DNA of 53,078 bases from Gammaproteobacteria bacterium (GTDB lineage: Bacteria; Pseudomonadota; Gammaproteobacteria; Chromatiales; Chromatiaceae). Position numbers and translations under genes: made by a program. The notes under the pieces were generated by a model. The model was not told the origin of the DNA, searched no databases, and was given only the letters and a program-made list of their open reading frames with translations. Positions 2 through 12,304 of the stretch are shown piece by piece. Location of the stretch: contig JALORY010000002.1 in NCBI GenBank assembly GCA_025458675.1, positions 1-53,078 on the forward strand, read 5' to 3'. The first letter of the stretch is position 1. Every line of letters starts with the position of its first letter.

Positions 2-3000
2 TTCAACGGCACGCCGGGCGGGCTGACCGTGCGCGTGTCCGACGCGCCGGTGGCCTTCGGGACGGCGAGCGACATCACCGCCACGCTGGCCGACCCGACC
101 AGCCACTGGTCGACGGCGGTCGCGCTGGGCACGTCGGTCGACGCGCGCAACGACGCGCCGACCGTGACGGCAGTCGCGAGCAGCCCGTCGGTCGCGGAGA
201 ACACCGACACCGGCACGGGCAACAGCGTCCCGCCGACGCGGCTCGTCTCGCCCGGCGTCGTCGTCGCCGACCGCGATCTCGCGAGCACGCCGGCGCTCTC
301 GCCGACCGTGTTCGGCGCGGGCACGATCACCGTCAGCCTCACCGACGCCTATGTTCCCGGCGACGTCCTCTTCGTCGACGCCGTCCTGCCCGCGGGGGTT
401 ACCGTCGCGGGCGGCAGCGGGGGCGCGCTGACCGTCACGCTCGACGGCGACACGACCCTCGCGGAGGTCGCCTCCCTTGTCGAGGCCATCGCCTACCGCA
501 ACACCAGCGACAACCCGACGCTCGGCAACACGGACGCCGACCGCGCCTACCGCATCGTCGTGAGCGATGGCAAAAACGCGCAGCCCGGCGGCGACGCCGG
601 CGGGCCGGCCGCCCTCGCGGCCGCCGCGATCGACGGCACCCTCACCATCGTCCCGACCAACGACCCGCCGGTGGTCGACCTCAACGGGGCGGCGGCGGGC
701 ACCGGCACCACCGTCACCTTCACCGAGGGCGCGAACGTCGCGCACGCGCCGGTCACCGTGGCGGGCGGCGCGATCCTGTCCGACGTCGACAACACGCGGC
801 TCACGGCGATGACGATCACCGTCGGCGGCCTGCGCGACGGCGATGCCGAGGTGCTCGGCATCGGCGGCACGAGCTTCCCGCTCGGCACCGACGCGACCGA
901 CGTCGACGTCGGCGCGTTCCGCGTGAGCTACGTCGCCGCCACCGGGACCTTCACCCTCGTCCCCGACGGCAGCAGCGTCGCCACCGTGGCCGCCTTCGAG
1001 GCGCTGCTGCGCGGCGTCACCTACCTGAGCACCACCGACGCGCCCACGGCCGGCGACCGGACCCTCGCGGTGCGCGTCACGGACGCCGGCTTCGACGACG
1101 GTCCCGGGGTCGGCGGGGAGGCGGCGGGCAGCGTCGCCACGGCCACGCTCACCGTCGTGCCGGCGAACGATCAACCGGTGATCACCGGGCTCGACACGGC
1201 CGTCTTCTTCGAAAACGACGTGAATGCCGTCGCGCGGCTGATCGACGGCAGCGTCACGCTGAGCGACGTCGACAGTCCGGATTACGCGGGCGGCAGCCTG
1301 CGCGTGAGCGGCCTGGTGGCCGGTCAGGACGTGGTCTCCCTCCCGACGGTCGCCGCCGCGGCGGCGGGCAGCGTCCGGCGCGACGGGGCCGTGGTCGAGC
1401 ACTTCGACGGCGCCGCCTGGGTGGCGGTCGGCACGGCGAGCGGCGGCAACGGCGCCGACTTCCTCGTGTCCTTCAACGCGAGCGCGACGCCGGCGATCGT
1501 CGAGCGGGTCGTCGAGAGCCTCACCTACGCCAACGGCGCCGACGACCCGGTGCCGACCCGGACCCTCACCCTCGCCGTGAACGACGGCGACGGCGGGGTC
1601 GTGCAGACGGCCGCGGTCGACGTTACGGTGCGGTACGACAACGACGCCCCGGCGATGACCGCGACGACCGTCGGCGGCAGCTACACCGAGCAGGATCCCG
1701 GCGGTCTCGCCTTGGTCGGCGGTGCCGTCAGCGTCTCCGACCCCGACGGCAACGCCAACTTCTACGACGGGGGCGCCAACGTCGGCTCGCTCGCCGTGGC
1801 CCTGGACGCCTACCGGGCCGGCGACCGCCTGTACGTGCGCGACGAGGGCAGCGGCGCGGGCCAGATCGGCGTCGCGGGCAGCACGATCCGCTACGGCGGG
1901 GTGGCCTTCGCGACGCTGTCGGGCGGCAGCGGCGCAGACCTCGCGATCACTTTCACCTCCGACGCGGCGACACCGGCCGCGGTGCAGGCGCTGCTCCGTC
2001 AGCTGCGCTTCGACAACCTGACGAACGACGACCCGACGGCGGACGGCACCGACCCGACGCGGGGCCTCACGATCACGCTGAACGACGGCGGCAATACCCG
2101 CGATCCGGGCTCGGCCACCGGTCCGCTGACCGCGACCCTGACCGGCACCATCACGGTCGTACCCGTCGCCGACGCGCCCGCGCTGGCCGGCGGCGGCGCG
2201 TCGCTCGCCTACGAGGAGAACGCCCCGGCCGCGGCGATCGACCCGACGGTGCGCGTCGCCTCGGATGCGGACGACACGCTGATCGCGGGCGCGACCGTTC
2301 GCATCAGCAGCGGCTACACCGCCGGCGACACGCTCGGCTTCGCCGGCCTGGCCGGCATCACCGGGTCGTACGATCCGGCCACGGGCGTGCTCACGCTCAC
2401 CGGCAGCGCCACGCTGGCGGACTACACCGCCGCGCTGCGGTCGGTGACCTTCGCGAGCAGTTCCGACGATCCGACGGCCCTCGGCGCTACCCGCACGATC
2501 AGCTGGCGGGTCACCGACGCGGACTCCGACGGCGCCGGGACCGCGGCGAGCAACGTGGTGACGAGCACGGTGACGATCGACGCGACCCCGGACCTCGCCC
2601 CCGACGCGGCGGCGACGAGCGAGGACACGCCGGTCACCATCGGCATCCTCGCCAACGACGACCTCGGCACGCCGGGCGGGGCGATCACCGCGCTCGACGC
2701 GGTCAGCGTCCGGGGCGGGGCGGTGGTGCTCGGCGCCGGCGGCACCGTCACGTACACGCCGCCCGCGGACTTCGTCGGCACGGACACCTTCACCTACACC
2801 TGGACCGACGGCAACGGCGACGCGCGCTCGGCGGTGGTGACGGTGACCGTGGGACCGATCGTCGACATCGCGGACGACGCCGGCACGACGCCGGAGGACA
2901 CGCCGATCACCGTCGCCGTGCTGGCCAACGACACCTTCGAGGGTGCGGCGGTGATCACCGGCGTCACGCCGGGGGCACACGGCCGGGTGACGGTCAATGC

Positions 3001-3946
3001 CGACGGCACGATCACCTACACACCGGACCCCGATTTCCACGGGGTGGACCGCTACACCTACACCGTGACGTCGGACGGCGTCAGCGAAACGGCCACGGTG
3101 ACGATCACCGTCACGCCGGTGAACGATCCGCCCGAGGCCGTGGCGGACGACGGCGGCACGCTGCGTCCCGGTCGCGAGGCGGTCTTCGCGCCGGGCGCGC
3201 TGCTGCACAACGACCGCGACGTGGACGGCGACCCGCTCGGCGTCGTCACCGTCGACCCGACCTCTGCCAACGGCGGTACGGTGGTGCTGCGGCCGGACGG
3301 CACCGTCGCCTACACCCCGCGGCCGGGCTTCGTCGGCCCCGACAGTTTTCGCTACACGATCAGCGACGGGCGCGGCGGCTTCAGCACCGCCACGGTCCGC
3401 GTGCTGGTCGCCAGCGACACCTACGTCGCGCCGCCGAAAGGCCCCTACGAGGCCGATCCGTTCCGCATCGATCAGCGGGAGATCGGCTACCCGGACTTCA
3501 CGCAGCCCTTCGAGCCCGCGCTCTTCGTCCTGCCCGCGGTCAGCGACGCCTTCGCGGTGAGCTCGGAGGCCAGCGACGCCACGGGGAGCCTCGGCATCCA
3601 CTACGCGGGCGAGCTCGGCAGCCGCGTGCTCGCCGGGTACGAGTCCCTGACGCCGGGTCAGTTCGTGCTGCGCCAGGGCGTGGCGCACGCCCGCGAGCTC
3701 GGGCAGCTCGCCGCCGCCCGCTCGGGCGCGCTGCTCAACACGCTGCTGCCGGGGGCGCAGACCCTGTTCGACGACTTCTCGCCCTTCGGACCGCGGCCGG
3801 CGACGGGCGAGGGGACCGACACGGTTCCGGCCGAGCCGGCGGCCGAGGGGACGCGGCAGACCGAGGCGGTTCCGCCACGCGGCGCGCCGGGGTTCAGCCA
3901 GCAGCTTCGGGCCGAGTCAGAAAAGAAAATTCAAAGACTTGGGTGA
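2..3946 (+). CDS. C-terminal part of a giant VCBS/cadherin-like repeat surface protein (5' truncated by window edge)
   Basis: Frame is open to the left edge (FNGTPGGLTVRVSD...). Tandem ~100-aa beta-domains joined by TxVxxxNDxP linkers, then tandem-95-type repeats (EDTPVTIGILANDD..., GTVTYTPxxxFxGxDxFxYT). Unique C-terminus without RTX nonapeptides. Confidence 0.9.
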   Translation, partial: FNGTPGGLTVRVSDAPVAFGTASDITATLADPTSHWSTAVALGTSVDARNDAPTVTAVASSPSVAENTDTGTGNSVPPTRLVSPGVVVADRDLASTPALSPTVFGAGTITVSLTDAYVPGDVLFVDAVLPAGVTVAGGSGGALTVTLDGDTTLAEVASLVEAIAYRNTSDNPTLGNTDADRAYRIVVSDGKNAQPGGDAGGPAALAAAAIDGTLTIVPTNDPPVVDLNGAAAGTGTTVTFTEGANVAHAPVTVAGGAILSDVDNTRLTAMTITVGGLRDGDAEVLGIGGTSFPLGTDATDVDVGAFRVSYVAATGTFTLVPDGSSVATVAAFEALLRGVTYLSTTDAPTAGDRTLAVRVTDAGFDDGPGVGGEAAGSVATATLTVVPANDQPVITGLDTAVFFENDVNAVARLIDGSVTLSDVDSPDYAGGSLRVSGLVAGQDVVSLPTVAAAAAGSVRRDGAVVEHFDGAAWVAVGTASGGNGADFLVSFNASATPAIVERVVESLTYANGADDPVPTRTLTLAVNDGDGGVVQTAAVDVTVRYDNDAPAMTATTVGGSYTEQDPGGLALVGGAVSVSDPDGNANFYDGGANVGSLAVALDAYRAGDRLYVRDEGSGAGQIGVAGSTIRYGGVAFATLSGGSGADLAITFTSDAATPAAVQALLRQLRFDNLTNDDPTADGTDPTRGLTITLNDGGNTRDPGSATGPLTATLTGTITVVPVADAPALAGGGASLAYEENAPAAAIDPTVRVASDADDTLIAGATVRISSGYTAGDTLGFAGLAGITGSYDPATGVLTLTGSATLADYTAALRSVTFASSSDDPTALGATRTISWRVTDADSDGAGTAASNVVTSTVTIDATPDLAPDAAATSEDTPVTIGILANDDLGTPGGAITALDAVSVRGGAVVLGAGGTVTYTPPADFVGTDTFTYTWTDGNGDARSAVVTVTVGPIVDIADDAGTTPEDTPITVAVLANDTFEGAAVITGVTPGAHGRVTVNADGTITYTPDPDFHGVDRYTYTVTSDGVSETATVTITVTPVNDPPEAVADDGGTLRPGREAVFAPGALLHNDRDVDGDPLGVVTVDPTSANGGTVVLRPDGTVAYTPRPGFVGPDSFRYTISDGRGGFSTATVRVLVASDTYVAPPKGPYEADPFRIDQREIGYPDFTQPFEPALFVLPAVSDAFAVSSEASDATGSLGIHYAGELGSRVLAGYESLTPGQFVLRQGVAHARELGQLAAARSGALLNTLLPGAQTLFDDFSPFGPRPATGEGTDTVPAEPAAEGTRQTEAVPPRGAPGFSQQLRAESEKKIQRLG

Positions 3947-4017
3947 GTATTCTGAGAATGTTTTGTAGAATTGCGGGACGACGGTCGGCCGCAGGCCGAG
4001 GCGCAGGAGACGCGGGA

Positions 4018-5919
4018 ATGACCAGGCGGGGACGGGGGGCGCAGCGGCTGGGGCTCGCGTTCGCGGCCGTGGTCGCGACGGCCTGCTCGGTCGCGCCGGT
4101 CCAGCTCACGCCACAGGAAATCGGCGCGCGGGTCCGGGGAGACCAGGAAAAGATCTACACCGGCCAGCAGCCCGTCACCGGGCCGATCACCTACGAAGAG
4201 GCGCTCGCGCGCGCGCTCAAGTACAACCTCGACTACCGCCTGAAGCTCATGGAGAGCGCCCTGGCGCGCGGCATCGCCGACGTGTCCGCCTACGACATGT
4301 TGCCGAAGCTGGTCGCCAACGCGGGCTACGTGAACCGCAGCAACGACTCGGGCGGCACCTCGGTCAGCATTCTCACGGGCGAGGAGACCCTCTCGCCGTC
4401 GACCTCCGAGGAGCGGCAGCGCTGGCTCGCCGGGGCCGATCTCTCCTGGAACGTGCTCGACTTCGGCCTCAGCTACTTCCGCGCCAAACAGGCGGCGGAG
4501 GAGTACAACATCGCCGAGGAGCGCCGCCGGCGCGTCCAGCAGAACATCGTGCAGGACGTGCGCAACGCCTACTGGCGCGCGCTCGGGGCGCAGCGCCTGC
4601 TGCCCCGGGCCGAGTCCGTGGCGAAGCGGGCCCGCGTGGCCGTCGACCAGTCCCGCGCGGCGGAGGCCGCCGGCGTGCTGCCGCCGGCGCAGGCGCTCGC
4701 GTATCAGCGCGCGCTGCTCGACGCCCTGACGCTGGTCACCCTCAAGCGCCAGGAGCTCGACTTCGCCAAGCGCGAGCTCGGGGCGCTGATGAACGTCGCG
4801 CCGGGAATCGATTTCGAGCTGGCCGAGCAGGCGGGCGCGCCGCTGCCGCCGGTGCCCGTCAACGTCGCCGAGCTCGAGCTCATCTCGCTCGAGAACCGGC
4901 CCGAGCTGCGGGAGGAGGACTACAAGGCGCGGTCGGGAGTCTACGAGAGCCGCAAGCAGCTGCTGTCGCTCTTTCCGAACCTGTCACTCAACGTCGGGCC
5001 GCTCTACGACTCGAACAAGTACCTCTACAACAGCAGCTGGTGGGCGGGGGCCGCGCGGCTGTCGATGAACCTGCTGCGGCTGCCCGCCACACAGGACATC
5101 CTCAGCACCAACGAGGCCCGCCAGAAGACCGACGAGGCCCGGCGCCTGGCCCTGTCCATGGCGATCATGACGCAGGTGCGGGTCGCGGTGGAGCGCTACC
5201 GGCTCGCGGCCGCCGACTACCAGTTCGCCGACGAGGCGGCGCGGGTCGACCAGCGCCTCGCGGACATCTCGCGGGCCGGCGTGAGCACCGCCGTGGAGAG
5301 CGAGCTCGAGGCGATCCGCACCGAGGCGCGGGCGCTGGTCTCGGAGTTCCAGCGCGCCGCGTCCTACGCCGGCGCGCAGACGGCCTACGCGCGCATCTAC
5401 AACTCGCTCGGCCTCGACGTGCTGCCCGCGCGGCTCGACGACGACGGTCTCGAGGCGCTCGCGGCGAAGGTCAAGGAATCGCTCGACCAGGGCGAGCGCG
5501 ACAGCTTCTTCCTGTCGACGTCCGACGTGCCGCAGCCCCAAGCCGTGCGCCTGGAGATCGCCGTGCCCGCGGGCATGCCGGCGGCCCGGATCCGCAGCGG
5601 CGTGGCGCAGCGGCTCGCCGGGCAGCTCCCCCTCGCGACCGGCAAGGGACCCGCCTGGCGGTTCCAGATGCGGCTCGTGCCGAAGCAGGGACCCGAGGGC
5701 CTGCAGCGCGCCGAGTGGCAGATGACCCTGCGCGATCCCGCCGGGCGCGTCGTGCATTCCGCGACGTACCAGAGCGCCCTGCCCGGCGATCCGACCGAGC
5801 GGGCGGTGGTGGCGTTCGCCGAGGCCGCGGCGCTGTCGCAGGTGGGCGAGGTGCGGCGCCGGATCACGCCCGCCGTCGCGCAGGCGGATGTTCCCGCTGT
5901 CGCCGGCCGGGCCGATTGA
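4018..5919 (+). CDS. TolC-family outer-membrane efflux lipoprotein
   Basis: ATG at 4018 with AGGAGA upstream. Lipobox-like signal (FAAVVATAC|S). Long helical TolC-type repeats (YEEALARALKYNLDYRL; QQNIVQDVRNAYWRALGAQ). Confidence 0.85.
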   Translation: MTRRGRGAQRLGLAFAAVVATACSVAPVQLTPQEIGARVRGDQEKIYTGQQPVTGPITYEEALARALKYNLDYRLKLMESALARGIADVSAYDMLPKLVANAGYVNRSNDSGGTSVSILTGEETLSPSTSEERQRWLAGADLSWNVLDFGLSYFRAKQAAEEYNIAEERRRRVQQNIVQDVRNAYWRALGAQRLLPRAESVAKRARVAVDQSRAAEAAGVLPPAQALAYQRALLDALTLVTLKRQELDFAKRELGALMNVAPGIDFELAEQAGAPLPPVPVNVAELELISLENRPELREEDYKARSGVYESRKQLLSLFPNLSLNVGPLYDSNKYLYNSSWWAGAARLSMNLLRLPATQDILSTNEARQKTDEARRLALSMAIMTQVRVAVERYRLAAADYQFADEAARVDQRLADISRAGVSTAVESELEAIRTEARALVSEFQRAASYAGAQTAYARIYNSLGLDVLPARLDDDGLEALAAKVKESLDQGERDSFFLSTSDVPQPQAVRLEIAVPAGMPAARIRSGVAQRLAGQLPLATGKGPAWRFQMRLVPKQGPEGLQRAEWQMTLRDPAGRVVHSATYQSALPGDPTERAVVAFAEAAALSQVGEVRRRITPAVAQADVPAVAGRAD

Positions 5920-5920
5920 G

Positions 5921-6658
5921 ATGGCCAGGACGCGCGCCGCCGTGCTCGCGGCCGGCCTGCTGTGTGCGCTCACCGCGCGGGCGGCGACCGAGCCGGGGAC
6001 GCCCGTGCGGGCGCTGGTCGTCGCCGACCAGGAGACCACGCTCGCGAGCCAGATGAGCGGCCGCATCCTCGACCTGCCGCGACGGCCCGGCGACGCGGCG
6101 AAGCAGGGCGAGACGCTCGTGAAGTTCGAGTGCGCCGAGCCCAAGGCGCGGGTCGACATGGCGAAGGCCGAGTTGCAGGCGGCGCGCCTGCAGCACGAGG
6201 CGAAGCTGCGGCTGCAGGGGCTCAAGTCGGCCTCCGAGCTGGACGTCGAGCTCGCCGCGGCCGCGGTCGACAAGGCGCGCGGCCAGCTCGCGCTGACCCA
6301 GGCCGAGCTCGAGCGGTGCACCATCACCGCGCCCTTCGCGGGGCGCGTCGCCAAGTGGCACGTCAAGCCGCACCAGACCCTCGCCGCCGGGCAGCCGATC
6401 GTCGATCTCGTCGCCGACGGCAAGCTGCGGCTGCGGCTGAACGTCCCCTCCGCGTGGCTCGCCTGGCTGAAGCCCGGGTACGCCTTCGAGGTCGCGATCG
6501 AGGAGACCGGCGTGGGCTATCCGCTGAAACTCGATCGGATCCACCCGCGCGTCGACGCCGTCAGCCAGACCGTCGAGGTCGAAGCGGTCTTCACCGGCGA
6601 CACGGCGGGCCTGCTGCCGGGGATGAGCGGCAGCGCGCGCCTCGCGAGGGCTCCTTGA
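5921..6658 (+). CDS. HlyD/RND-type periplasmic adaptor subunit
   Basis: Signal peptide, biotinyl-lipoyl half motifs, helical hairpin, then CTITAPFAGRVAKWHVKPHQTLAAGQPIVDL. Start chosen just after the tolC stop. Confidence 0.8.
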   Translation: MARTRAAVLAAGLLCALTARAATEPGTPVRALVVADQETTLASQMSGRILDLPRRPGDAAKQGETLVKFECAEPKARVDMAKAELQAARLQHEAKLRLQGLKSASELDVELAAAAVDKARGQLALTQAELERCTITAPFAGRVAKWHVKPHQTLAAGQPIVDLVADGKLRLRLNVPSAWLAWLKPGYAFEVAIEETGVGYPLKLDRIHPRVDAVSQTVEVEAVFTGDTAGLLPGMSGSARLARAP

Positions 6659-7968
6659 CGCCGGTCGAGGCGACCGCGCAGGCCCTCGCCGCCGGCGCGC
6701 GCGCGGCCACCGACGCCCGGACGCTCGCCTTCCTCGTCTGCAACGAGACGCGGCAGCTGCTGCCGTTCCGGCTCGCTGCGCTGTTCGTGCCTGCGCGGCG
6801 CGGGGGCTGGCGGCTGCACACCCACTCGGGCCTCGCCGTGCTCGACGAGCGCACGCCATACCGCCTGTGGCTCGAGTCGCTGGTGGCGCGCGTCGCCCCC
6901 GCGCTCGACGCCCCCCGCACGGTGGGGCCGGGCGATCTCGGCGACGCCGCCGCGGACTGGGACGAGTGGCTGCCCGCGGGCGTCCTGCTGTTGCCCCTGC
7001 GCGGCCCCGAGGACAGCCTCGCGGCGGTCTGGCTCGTCGCGCGGGACACCGCCTGGGCGCTGCCGCCGCCGGCGGGTTCCGCGGAGGCCGCCCTGCTGGC
7101 CCTGGCCGCCGTCTACGGTCACGCCTGGTGGGCCTGGGAGCGACCGCGGCGCCGCGGGGCCGGCGCGCGCGCCCTGCGCTGGGCCCCGCTCCTGGCGCTC
7201 GGCCTGCTGGCGCTGCCCGTGCGCGAGTCCGCGCTCGCGCCGGCGGAGGTCACTGCAGTCGACGCGCAGGTGATCACCGCGCCGCAGGACGGCGTGGTGC
7301 GCGCGATGCGGGTGGCACCGAACACCGCAGTGCGCGCGGGAGACGTCCTCCTCGAGCTCGACGACACCGTGCTCGCGAACCGGCGCGGCGTGACGCAGGA
7401 GGCGCTGCGCACGGCGCGCGCCGACCTCCTGCAGGCCGAGCAGAAGGCCTTCGACGATGCGGCGAGCCGCGCCGAGGTCGCGGTGCTCCGCGGCAAGGTG
7501 GCGGAGCGTGAGGCGGAGCTCGAGAGTCTCGGACGCCAGCTCGAGCGGCTCGCGGTGCGGGCGCCGGCGGACGGGCTGTTCATCTACGGCGAGTCGAGCG
7601 ACTGGGCGGGGCGGCCCGTGCAGACGGGCGAGCGGGTCGGCCTGCTCGCCGACCCGGCGCGCCTGGGACTCACCGCCTGGCTGCCGGTCGCCGACGCGAT
7701 CAACCTCGAGCCCGGGGCCGGGCTCACGCTCTACCTGCACGTCGCGCCGCTCACGCCGCTCGACGGGCGGCTGTCTGAAACCAGCTACCAGGCGGTCGTC
7801 TCGCCCGAGGGCGTGGCGAGCTACCGCGTGCGCGGCGAGCTCGACGACGCCGGTCCGGCCCGCATCGGCCTCAAGGGCACGGCGAAGATCTACGGCGGGC
7901 GCGTGCCGCTCGCCTACCTCGTGTTCCGCCGGCCGCTCGCGGCCCTGCGCACCGCCTGCGGATGCTGA
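6655..7968 (+). CDS. GAF-like domain + TM + HlyD adaptor protein
   Basis: N-terminal ~170 aa GAF-like region, TM (RWAPLLALGLLALPV), then a HlyD lipoyl/coiled-coil region (VITAPQDGVVRAMRVAPNTAVRAGDVLLELDD). TTG start overlaps the previous stop. Confidence 0.7.
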   Translation: MTPVEATAQALAAGARAATDARTLAFLVCNETRQLLPFRLAALFVPARRGGWRLHTHSGLAVLDERTPYRLWLESLVARVAPALDAPRTVGPGDLGDAAADWDEWLPAGVLLLPLRGPEDSLAAVWLVARDTAWALPPPAGSAEAALLALAAVYGHAWWAWERPRRRGAGARALRWAPLLALGLLALPVRESALAPAEVTAVDAQVITAPQDGVVRAMRVAPNTAVRAGDVLLELDDTVLANRRGVTQEALRTARADLLQAEQKAFDDAASRAEVAVLRGKVAEREAELESLGRQLERLAVRAPADGLFIYGESSDWAGRPVQTGERVGLLADPARLGLTAWLPVADAINLEPGAGLTLYLHVAPLTPLDGRLSETSYQAVVSPEGVASYRVRGELDDAGPARIGLKGTAKIYGGRVPLAYLVFRRPLAALRTACGC

Positions 7969-10067
7969 CGCCGGAGACGGTCCCCGCGCTGCGCGAGGAG
8001 CTGCGGCTCCTGCCGGCGACGCCGCAGCCTGACGGTTCGCCCGCGTGGCACGTCCTCGACCCGGTGCGCAACCGCTTCTTCCGCATCGGCTGGCTCGAGT
8101 TCGAGCTCCTCTGCCGCTGGGCGCTTGGCCGGCCCGAGGCCATCGCGCGCGCCGTTGCCGCCGAGACCACGCTGGCGGCGACGGCCGACGACGTCGCCGC
8201 GCTCGCCGGGTTCCTCGACAGGCACGCGCTGCTCGCGCCCGCGGGGCCGCGCGTGGCGGAGGCGCTCGCCGGGCGCGCGCGACGCCAGCGCGGCGCGTGG
8301 TGGCAGCGGGCAGTCCACCAGTACCTCTTCTTCCGGGTCCCGCTGGTCTTTCCGCAGGCCCGGCTCGCCGACGTCGCGCGCCGGCTGCGCTGGGCCTGGT
8401 CGCCGGCATTCCTGGGGCTGAGCGCCGTCGCCGGCGCGGTCGGGCTGTGGCTGCTGTCGCGCCAGTGGGACAGCGTGCTCGTCGAGCTGCGCGGCGCGTT
8501 CCAGGGACTCGGCTGGGTCGGTTTCGCGGCCGCGCTCGCGCTGTCCAAGACCCTGCACGAGGTCGGACACGCGGTCACGGCGGCCCGCCACGGCGTGCGC
8601 GTCGGGCACATGGGGGTCGCCTTCGTCGTGCTGCTGCCCATGCTCTACACCGACACGGGCGAGAGCTGGAAGCTGCTCACCTCGCGCGCGCGGCTGCGCA
8701 TCGCGGCCGCCGGGCTCACGGCCGAGCTCACGCTCGCCGCCTGGGCGACCCTGGCCTGGGCGCTGCTGCCCGACGGCGCGCTGCGCCAGGCGACGCTGTT
8801 CCTGGCGACCAGCGCGTGGGTCGTGTCGGTCGCGGTCAACGCGAGCCCCTTCATGCGCTTCGACGGCTACTTCCTGCTGTCGGACGCGCTCGATCTGCCG
8901 AACCTGCACGAGCGCGCCGGGGCGCTGGCCCGCGCGCGGCTGCGGCGCGTCCTGCTCGGCCTGCCGGAACCCGACCCCGAGTCCTTCGCGCCCGGCACCG
9001 CCCGCGCCCTGACCCTGTTCGCCTGGACGACGTGGCTCTACCGCGCGGTGGTGTTCTTCGGCATCGCGCTCCTCGTCTATCACCTCGCGTTCAAGCTCCT
9101 CGGCATCGCCCTGTTCCTGATCGAGGTGGTGTGGCTGATCCTGCGGCCGGTGTGGCGGGAGCTGACGGGCTGGTGGCGGCTGCGCACGCGAGTACCCATC
9201 GCGCGCCGGCTGGCGCTGCTGGCCTTCCTCGGCGGGCTCGCCGCGCTGCTCCTCCTGCCCTGGCAGACCGGGGTGCGGGCCGACGGCTGGCTGCACGCGG
9301 AGCAGCGCGCGCTCCACGCGCCGCAGCCCGCGTGGCTCGAGACGGTCGCGGTACGCGCGGGCGAGCGCGTCGCGGCGGGTCAGCTCCTCTTCACGCTGCG
9401 TCAGCCGGCGCTCGAAGACGCGGGGCGCAAGGCGGCGATCATGGCCGAGGCCTTCGGCCGGCAGGCCGCCGGTTTCGTCGGCGTGGAGGGCACCGGCACG
9501 GCCCGCGCTCAACTGGCCGCGCAGCTGGCGGCGGAGTGGCGGAGGGAGGCGGCGGCCAAGCACGAGGAGGCCGAACGGCTGCGTCTGGCCGCGCCCTTCG
9601 CGGGCACGGTCCTCGACCTCGACCCCGACCTGCGCCCGGGGGCCTGGGTCGGCGTGGACACGGCGCTCGCGTGGCTCGTCGACGAGCGGACGTGGCGCGC
9701 GGAGGTGCTGGTCGAGGAGGCTGCGGTGGGCCGGATCCGGACCGGTCAGGCGGCCAAGGTCTACCCGGCCGGCTCGGCGGCGGCGCCGTGGCCGGCGCGC
9801 GTGATCGCCGTCGACCCCGCGCGCCTGCAGGCCCTGCCGCACCCGCTGCTCGACGCGCGCCACGGCGGCCCGGTGCGCGTGGAGGAGGGCAGGGACAAGG
9901 CCGCGAAGCCCCGCGCGGCGCTCTTTCGCGTGGTGTTGACGCTCGAGGCGCCGCCGGCGCGGCGCGTCCAGCCGATCACCGCCGTCATCGAGGCCGAGCC
10001 GCAGAGCCTCATCGGCCGCTGGGCCGGCGCGCTCGTCGCGACGCTGATCCGGGAGAGCGGGTTCTAG
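7962..10067 (+). CDS. Multi-TM M50-type zinc metallopeptidase-like protein with N-terminal PqqD-like and C-terminal HlyD/lipoyl regions
   Basis: HEVGH motif in a TM helix (SKTLHEVGHAVTAARHG), second motif NASPFMRFDGYFLLSD, multiple TM helices, C-terminal lipoyl/barrel segments (APFAGTVLDLDPDLRPGAWVG). Confidence 0.75.
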   Translation: MLTPETVPALREELRLLPATPQPDGSPAWHVLDPVRNRFFRIGWLEFELLCRWALGRPEAIARAVAAETTLAATADDVAALAGFLDRHALLAPAGPRVAEALAGRARRQRGAWWQRAVHQYLFFRVPLVFPQARLADVARRLRWAWSPAFLGLSAVAGAVGLWLLSRQWDSVLVELRGAFQGLGWVGFAAALALSKTLHEVGHAVTAARHGVRVGHMGVAFVVLLPMLYTDTGESWKLLTSRARLRIAAAGLTAELTLAAWATLAWALLPDGALRQATLFLATSAWVVSVAVNASPFMRFDGYFLLSDALDLPNLHERAGALARARLRRVLLGLPEPDPESFAPGTARALTLFAWTTWLYRAVVFFGIALLVYHLAFKLLGIALFLIEVVWLILRPVWRELTGWWRLRTRVPIARRLALLAFLGGLAALLLLPWQTGVRADGWLHAEQRALHAPQPAWLETVAVRAGERVAAGQLLFTLRQPALEDAGRKAAIMAEAFGRQAAGFVGVEGTGTARAQLAAQLAAEWRREAAAKHEEAERLRLAAPFAGTVLDLDPDLRPGAWVGVDTALAWLVDERTWRAEVLVEEAAVGRIRTGQAAKVYPAGSAAAPWPARVIAVDPARLQALPHPLLDARHGGPVRVEEGRDKAAKPRAALFRVVLTLEAPPARRVQPITAVIEAEPQSLIGRWAGALVATLIRESGF

Positions 10068-10080
10068 GCGCCGCGCGCCG

Positions 10081-10992
10081 TCAGATCCCGCCGAAGTCCG
10101 GTTCCTTCGACGCCGCGTCGTTGGGGTGTGCGAGCGCGGCCTTCATCGATTCGGGCATCGGGACGCCGAGCGTGATGCCGACGAGCGGCAGCGGCGCGAG
10201 GAACCACTTGCGGTAGAGCGTCGCGAGCTCGCCGCTGTGCGCCATCGCGGCGACCTCGCGATCGACGAAGGCCTTGAGTGCAGGGCGGTCCTTCGCCATC
10301 ACGATGGCGATGTTCTCGTCGGCCTCGAGACCCGGCACGACGGCGAGGCGCTGGCGCGTGCCGCGCTGGGCGGCCTCGCCCAGCATCACGACGTCCGTGC
10401 CGAAGAAGGCGTCGACCGTGCCGTCCATGAGCGCCTGGTAGGCGCGCACGTTGTTGCGCACGGGCACCACGTCGGCATCGAGGCCACGGGCCGCGACGAA
10501 TCGTCGCGCGGTGGCCGCGTCGGTCGTGTCGGTGATCACCGCGAGCCGCCTGCCGCGCAGGTCCTCGACGCTGCCGATGCCCGATCCCGCGAGCGCGATC
10601 AGGCGGGCGCTGCGGGTCGCAATGGTGTTGGAGAACAGGAAGTCCTGCTGGCGCTCGAGCGTGTTGCTGGTGATCCCGCACTCCAGGTCCGCGTGCTTTC
10701 CCTTCACCAGAAGGAAACGGGTGATCGCCGTGGCCTTGGCATAGCGCACGCGCAGGTCGGGCGTGCCGAGCTGGTGGCGCAGACGATCGACGATGCGGTT
10801 GCAGACGTCGACCGAGTAGCCGCTCGGCCGGTCGTCGCGCGCGGTGTAGCTGAAGCCGATGGCCGCCTCACGGTGCGCGATCACGAGCTGCCCGACGCGC
10901 CGGAAGTGATCGAGACCGAGCTCCGGCTCCTGCGCTGCCGTGACCGGCGAGGCGAGCGCGCAGAGCGCGAGAACGGCGGTGCGCAGGCGCAT
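10081..10992 (-). CDS. Family-3 amino-acid ABC transporter substrate-binding protein (orphan)
   Basis: Signal peptide, FSYTARDDRPSGYSVDVCNRIVDRL, DLECGITSNTLERQQDFLFSNTI, LYRKWF. No adjacent permease or ATPase. Confidence 0.85.
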   Translation of the reverse strand: MRLRTAVLALCALASPVTAAQEPELGLDHFRRVGQLVIAHREAAIGFSYTARDDRPSGYSVDVCNRIVDRLRHQLGTPDLRVRYAKATAITRFLLVKGKHADLECGITSNTLERQQDFLFSNTIATRSARLIALAGSGIGSVEDLRGRRLAVITDTTDAATARRFVAARGLDADVVPVRNNVRAYQALMDGTVDAFFGTDVVMLGEAAQRGTRQRLAVVPGLEADENIAIVMAKDRPALKAFVDREVAAMAHSGELATLYRKWFLAPLPLVGITLGVPMPESMKAALAHPNDAASKEPDFGGI

Positions 10993-11068
10993 GGGGGGTT
11001 CCTCGATCGGCGGGAGTGCTGGCCGGCGATGATACGGCCCGCGGCCGGCCGGCCTCCAGCGCGTGGGC

Positions 11069-12304
11069 TCAGGCCGCGCGCCGCCGATCCAGCACCGCAA
11101 CGGCCGCGGTCACGCCGACCGCGGCGGCGAGCAGCGCGACGGCGGTCCACAGGCTGTCGAGGCGCTGGGGCGCGAGGAGCAGCACGAGGCCGAGGCCGAG
11201 CATCATGCTGCCGGACAGGAGCTTGAGCAGACGGCCCTCGTACTCGGTGAGCTGGCGCCGGCCGAGCGCGCGCGTCACGGCGTAGACGATCAGGGCGAGC
11301 GGCACCACGTAGACGACGTTGTAGAGCGCGAGGTAGCCGTACCAGCCGGCGGTGCCGAGGTCGTTCAGCGTGAGCACCCGCGTGTAGACCATGGGGAACC
11401 CGGCCGTGCACAGCAGCTCGTACGAGTTGGCCGCGACGGCGAGCAGCAGCGTCGCGCCCAGCATCGCCGGCAGGCTGCCCGCGGCGACGACCGCGCGGCC
11501 GCGCCGGTAGAGGTCCGGCAGCCGCGACGCCGGAATGGTGAGGGACGGCCCCCGCTTGAAGGCGAAGTAGTCCTTGATGTTGACGAGGGCCATGAGGATC
11601 GCGACGACGGCCGCGCCGGCCGTCACCCACTTCACGCTCCCCAGCATCTGGAAGAGGCTCAGCCAGGCGGCCATGAACGCGAAGTAGACGAGGCCGGAGA
11701 CGGCGACGAAGGTACCGCCGATCAGCAGCATCCGCCGGCGGTCGCGCTGGTGCGCCAGCAGCCCGAGCAGGAAGAGCAGCACGAAAAAGGCGCAGGGGTT
11801 GAAGGCGTCCAGGCCGGCGATGACCAGGGTGAACAGCGGCAGCGAGAGCGACTGCGGCGAGACGCGGCCCGCGAGGGGGAGGTCGATCTCCGTGGGCGCC
11901 TCGGCGGCCGTTCCGCCGGCGGCGACGCGCTCGTGGCACCGGGTCAGGCGCTCGCGCAGCAGCGCGCCGGTGCTCTCGGCGTCGCGCCAGCCGACGTGCA
12001 GCTCGCCGCAGAACAGGAAGGCGGGCACCGACGACGCGCGCTCGCCGAGCTCCGCCGCCATCGCGATATAGCGGCGGGCGTTCTCCGGGTTGCGGCTGAG
12101 CTCGAGGTCGTGCAGGCGCAGCCAGGGCAGCTCGCCTGGCAGCGCCGTGACGAAGGGGCGTGCCTGGAGGCAGTGCGGGCAGCGGGCAGACCAGAAGAAG
12201 TGCAGATCGACCTCCCCGGCGACCCCCTCGCCCGCGCGCGCGCCCGGCGGCAGGAGCGCGCCGAGCAGGCAAGCGAGGAGGAGGGGAAGGGCGGCGAGCC
12301 GCAT
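11069..12304 (-). CDS. Periplasmic thioredoxin-like (CPHC) domain fused to a DsbD/CcdA-like membrane domain
   Basis: FFWSARCPHCLQARPF active site, then TM segment LDAFNPCAFFVLLFLLGLL and later Cys-containing TM segments. Confidence 0.75.
   Translation of the reverse strand: MRLAALPLLLACLLGALLPPGARAGEGVAGEVDLHFFWSARCPHCLQARPFVTALPGELPWLRLHDLELSRNPENARRYIAMAAELGERASSVPAFLFCGELHVGWRDAESTGALLRERLTRCHERVAAGGTAAEAPTEIDLPLAGRVSPQSLSLPLFTLVIAGLDAFNPCAFFVLLFLLGLLAHQRDRRRMLLIGGTFVAVSGLVYFAFMAAWLSLFQMLGSVKWVTAGAAVVAILMALVNIKDYFAFKRGPSLTIPASRLPDLYRRGRAVVAAGSLPAMLGATLLLAVAANSYELLCTAGFPMVYTRVLTLNDLGTAGWYGYLALYNVVYVVPLALIVYAVTRALGRRQLTEYEGRLLKLLSGSMMLGLGLVLLLAPQRLDSLWTAVALLAAAVGVTAAVAVLDRRRAA

Follow-up and report, generated by a model that had tools for sequence, protein, structure and literature searches.

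The locus raises the question of how a giant repeat protein leaves the cell when the genes beside it encode an outer-membrane channel and three adaptor-bearing proteins and no ABC motor. The window, i.e., the whole 53,078-nucleotide stretch of DNA that was analysed, is contig C35 of an assembly that is 72% complete and comprises 138 contigs. Five same-strand genes lie at positions 2-10067 and overlap by 4-32 bp, which confirms the co-directional and closely packed arrangement described in the first-pass annotation. The convergent next gene begins at 10081, and the region 10081-12304 encodes a family-3 solute-binding protein followed by a polytopic protein that bears a thioredoxin-like CPHC motif and matched no Pfam family.

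The first gene (2-3946, plus strand, as are the four that follow) was recognized by Pfam and NCBIfam matches as the C-terminal part (1314 aa) of a giant protein whose 5' end is cut by the contig start. Its repeats, initially named VCBS, match Pfam Big_9/Cadherin_4/5 and NCBIfam tandem-95, and no VCBS model matched the part in the window; a VCBS model does match in one relative (L040). An alignment of 66 giants delimited a non-repeat conserved C-terminal tail at 3500-3946 (...PALFVLPAV...TPGQFVLRQGV...LFDDFSPF...FSQQLR). The outer-membrane factor (OMF) at 3943-5919 is a TolC/NodT-like OEP protein (PF02321, 2.6e-29). It bears a lipoprotein-like signal (VATAC), and its C-terminus is extended relative to Pseudomonas homologues of ~510 aa, which apparently lack this part. 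It is followed at 5888-6658 by an HlyD/RND-type periplasmic adaptor with a signal-peptide-like N-terminus (TIGR01730 above cut-off, PF13437), for which an alternative ATG at 5921 is the likely start. The fourth gene (6655-7968) encodes a GAF-like N-terminal region, a hydrophobic segment, and an HlyD adaptor (PF13437, hhalign), and the fifth (7962-10067) a PqqD-like wHTH, an M50 site-2-protease-like membrane domain, and a periplasmic HlyD domain (PF02163, PF13437). The domain names given earlier were thus upheld by Pfam for OEP, for HlyD_3 in three proteins, and for Peptidase_M50 (1.5e-7), while GAF and PqqD were not detected in the window proteins themselves. No GAF model matched the GAF-like-HlyD protein, and its N-terminal region aligned to SecA-type GAF proteins with an hhalign probability of 85% (E 6e-6).

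A genome scan yielded at least 525 candidate stretches encoding a relative, and 80 related loci with 42-55% identity were examined. They are spread over Beta- and Gammaproteobacteria, with hosts including Accumulibacter, Pseudomonas, Variovorax, Hydrogenophaga, Caballeronia, and Aeromonas. The gene order OEP-HlyD-GAF/HlyD-M50/HlyD was conserved in 72 of the 80 loci. A long ORF lay immediately upstream of the block in 65 and solely downstream of it in 5, which makes 70 of the 80 altogether, and most of the loci without one stop at contig edges. Of 50 named genomes with the block, 48 had DUF4347 proteins, and 42 had, by coordinates, a DUF4347 N-terminus on the same strand no more than 25 kb away from it. 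Gene order and adjacent long ORFs together mark the block as a conserved unit linked to giant repeat proteins, and the neighbourhood survey proposed with the first-pass annotation, which might have found the block unlinked elsewhere, recovered this linkage in other genomes.

An ABC exporter gene (LSGG-type) adjoining the block was found neither downstream in the window nor recurrently near the 80 loci. On contig C120, which probably holds the N-terminal half of the giant, there was likewise no ABC gene upstream, and MscS-like and transaldolase-like genes, labels taken from reading the ORFs rather than from a domain scan, lie there instead. The lack of an ABC exporter beside the block, as first noticed in the window, is thus a recurrent feature of the 80 loci, and an upstream ABC exporter gene, which would have contradicted the first-pass annotation, did not turn up on the probable C120 side. 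The ABC genes beside two variant loci (G218 and G334) were considered as exporters and rejected, as the Uup-like product is an ABC-F protein.

SecA was also looked for near the block and found at 0 of the 80 loci. The window organism's own genome (72% complete) yielded one SecA, the canonical one, and no secondary SecA_DEAD. A cluster of M50-HlyD, GAF-HlyD, HlyD, and sometimes OEP genes together with a secondary SecA_DEAD gene was described by Kamneva et al. 2015 (Kamneva, Poudel & Ward; PMC4452313), who name Planctomycetes, Verrucomicrobia, and Proteobacteria as hosts, suggest SecA as the ATPase and M50 as the pore, and give the biological role as unknown. The idea of M50 in place of the ABC component is therefore not new. 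The window block is a SecA-less subtype (type A) of M50-HlyD loci, and the SecA-linked loci are type B. Type B loci were found among the relatives of the window organism, and some genomes carry both types. The M50 proteins of types A and B share only ~19-24% identity. Canonical SecA occurred alone in 30 of 33 type A genomes, and a second SecA was present in G093, G094, and G096. In two type A blocks (L126 and L123, from genomes G016 and G026), split frames were observed in the OEP, GAF, or M50 genes, possibly reflecting decaying copies or assembly errors.

The giant of the window is presumed to be the exported substrate of the block, and both of its ends were considered as the site of an export signal. 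The profile of its C-terminal tail matched at 65 of the 80 type A loci and nowhere else among the scanned loci. As the tail is restricted to type A loci in this way, it is not the common denominator and was rejected as a general export signal. The sole DUF4347 match in the window genome lies at the end of contig C120, in a protein with the start MTHRPRNRTAAPLHPRRLAQALEPRLLFDGAA that presumably supplies the N-terminus missing from the window giant. No overlap was found between the contig ends of C120 and C35, so we infer the join, and the leader of the window genome was taken from C120 on the assumption that it belongs to the same gene.

The giants that adjoin blocks of type A or B begin with a basic stretch of ~10-35 residues, followed by the motif LE[P/Q]R-h-h-[FLY]-[D/S/N]-[G/A]. 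This leader usually precedes DUF4347, and a clear Sec signal peptide is absent from these N-termini. Among hand-picked N-termini, the 11-residue Kyte-Doolittle maximum was 0.9-2.1 for motif-bearing proteins and 1.9-3.0 for eight motif-less DUF4347 proteins with signal-peptide-like starts, with six further ones having neither motif nor such a start; since the ranges overlap, motif-bearing giants may still carry a weak Sec signal. Against NF012209 (LEPR-XLL), the leaders of the relatives scored 10.9-14.4 bits, under the 17-bit cut-off, in a scan that covered the relatives' leaders, the N-terminus of the window giant being on another contig. The motif is retained in giants without DUF4347 (G329, G410, G218, G334, and G399), the last four of which lie inside or beside the operon. 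In G218 and G334, a cadherin-like protein of 836-1116 aa starting LEQRVVLDA or LEERVVLDA sits between OEP and M50, as does a 1367-aa cadherin protein with LEKRIVLDG in G410, and in G399 a 1319-aa tandem-95 protein with LETRLLYSA follows the block. The G329 giant, located ~17 kb upstream of its block, aligns over the motif region only.

DUF4347 itself apparently adopts a clan CD fold like that of caspase and legumain, has a His/Cys dyad, and is placed directly behind the leader (N-terminal ~250 aa of L088, L107, L108, and L192). H141 and C184 are invariant, and Foldseek returned 9qpe_G, a T6SS complex chain named DUF4347 protein, as the best match, followed by legumain and caspase, with modest TM-scores of 0.3-0.5. 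The literature mentions DUF4347 in a putative T6SS toxin. Given the invariant residues and the legumain and caspase matches, the leader of the giants may be followed by a domain resembling cysteine proteases, possibly with an autoprotease role.

Across genomes, the LEPR motif tracks the M50-HlyD protein and not DUF4347, and the co-occurrence is near-exclusive. In the class set (369 genomes), M50-HlyD was present in 36 of 38 motif-positive genomes versus 1 of 9 with motif-less DUF4347 only (Fisher p 1.2e-6; because the sets overlap and the genomes are related, this and the following p-values are indicative only). One genome with a truncated N-terminus was left out, and the variants LEKR, LETR, LEDR, LERR, LENR, and QERR, missed by the first regular expression, were accepted by eye. 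The two exceptions, G350 and G390, had adaptor-type matches only, at a relaxed threshold. The phylum set (398 genomes), in which motif status was read from the profile start position and genomes with unlisted hits were scored motif-negative, gave 68 of 69 motif-positive versus 7 of 25 other genomes (p 9e-13), and the exception, G643, is 57% complete. All motif-positive genomes of the family set were M50-positive (9/9). A class-wide test with a 24-residue LEPR model was dropped, as the model is too short for significance in six-frame searches. The residue after [FLY], in a table compiled by hand, was D in 6/6 type A and S or N in 9/9 type B genomes (p 2e-4), and it was D in 30/30 named type A cases. 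This co-variation of motif and subtype could have arisen if the type A and type B cassettes were each inherited as a whole, without contact between motif and machine.

As the LEPR tag is almost confined to genomes bearing the machine, it is probably the machine's address label, with the membrane protease as its reader. We therefore favour, at a probability of about 0.6, the reading that giant repeat proteins with an N-terminal LEPR-type leader are exported or displayed on the surface by the block as their dedicated system. That the block is instead an efflux or signalling module with no relation to the adhesin genes next to it is hardly credible by comparison: HlyD and OEP proteins are common in efflux and GAF suggests sensing, but giants adjoin 70 of the 80 loci, LEPR proteins are inserted in the operon between OEP and M50, and motif and M50-HlyD co-occur genome-wide. 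It is also decidedly doubtful that the giant crosses through a classical ABC type I system whose genes lie elsewhere, with the block only processing, anchoring, or releasing it. ABC half-transporters do occur in the window genome, and some DUF4347 giants adjoin a PrtD-type T1SS ABC, as at L199 (1493-11273), suggesting that DUF4347 giants can take either export route. However, the LEPR motif is missing from the giant beside that ABC, an OMF and adaptors are already encoded in the block, and no T1SS ABC reached the LssB family cut-off in the 72% complete window genome, where the best scored 314 versus 693 bits.

The remaining alternatives concern the M50-HlyD protein (701 aa). It carries the site-2 protease (S2P) zinc motif, HExxH plus N-x-x-P...D in membrane helices, as HEVGH at residues 199-203 and N293/P296/D301. 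H199, E200, H203, N293, P296, and D301 were invariant in 46 of 46 M50-family sequences of both types. The AlphaFold model (pLDDT 91.5) starts with a b-b-b-a-a-a unit at the N-terminus and further shows about seven membrane helices and an adaptor domain with PDB matches to MexA/MacA/EmrA-type adaptors; Foldseek with the protein as a whole returned adaptor matches. The top PDB match of the N-terminal profile was PqqD 3g2b (E 0.005), PF05402 (PqqD) matched 7 of 46 relatives (best 2e-5), and the AlphaFold topology fits this assignment, although the window protein had no Pfam match there. PqqD-like domains in RiPP systems bind leader peptides.

Under the favoured export reading, the cytoplasmic PqqD-like domain would recognize the LEPR motif, and the M50 site would next trim the leader. 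The three HlyD-bearing proteins may form a mixed adaptor ring docked on the TolC-like protein, and the giant would exit via this ring and duct. The leader reading and trimming steps are more tentative than export itself, at somewhat under even odds, and trimming is weakened because the substrates of S2P enzymes are usually transmembrane helices, unlike the leader. For the inner-membrane channel and energy source of type A, housekeeping SecA/SecYEG would be the first guess, as the sister subtype has its own SecA-like ATPase. That the protease-adaptor fusion is itself an inner-membrane gate, whose RiPP-type domain reads the leader while proteins of several thousand residues are moved without a dedicated ATPase, is quite improbable. 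M50-HlyD might also be the inner-membrane pore in place of an ABC permease, with the zinc site secondary. We know of no S2P fold acting as a protein channel, the block encodes no energy source, and the invariance of the catalytic residues across 46 divergent members favours proteolysis, alone or additionally. The pore is therefore unlikely, even though the block lacks an ABC exporter or other permease, the seven predicted helices are flanked by a cytoplasmic-type domain and a periplasmic adaptor, and a pore was already proposed for SecA-linked relatives in PMC4452313.

Blocks without an ABC motor occur beside giant surface proteins in hundreds of bacteria, and LEPR-type giants are widespread. 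Searches of the open-access literature for M50, HlyD, and adhesin together, LEPR, and DUF4347 found nothing on such a system beyond Kamneva 2015 (PMC4452313), and no paper stating an export route for LEPR-type giants. The link between tag and machine offers a testable route and points to a possible role for a gene cluster that had none assigned in 2015. If true, giant-protein secretion would employ a RiPP-type leader reader and an intramembrane protease in an unusual way. The SecA-less subtype occurs in tractable hosts, e.g., Pseudomonas and Variovorax.

As in the T1SS giant adhesins (LapA/LapBCE, SiiE, and BapA), a giant repeat protein lies beside adaptor and TolC-like genes, and the block holds the HlyD adaptor and TolC-like OMF of classical type I secretion; it differs in lacking the ABC permease/ATPase and in the conserved N-terminal leader motif of its substrates. 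LEPR-XLL proteins (NF012209) share a similar N-terminal motif on very large repeat proteins, whereas the relatives' leaders fall below the curated cut-off. The closest named family of M50-HlyD is the daptide intramembrane metalloprotease NF041824 (residues 32-409, 8.7e-37; 127 bits, below the 300-bit cut-off), which matches over the PqqD region and M50 and, as DapP in daptide clusters, is predicted to remove the leader; unlike it, the window M50 carries a fused HlyD domain and is associated with giant proteins instead of small peptides. The Kamneva locus shares M50-HlyD, GAF-HlyD, the HlyD adaptor, and the lack of an ABC transporter, whereas in the window subtype SecA_DEAD is missing and OEP is retained as part of the operon. 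No substrate or signal is proposed in the available part of PMC4452313, and the substrate signal, i.e., the LEPR leader linked to the M50-HlyD machine, appears to be what is new here.
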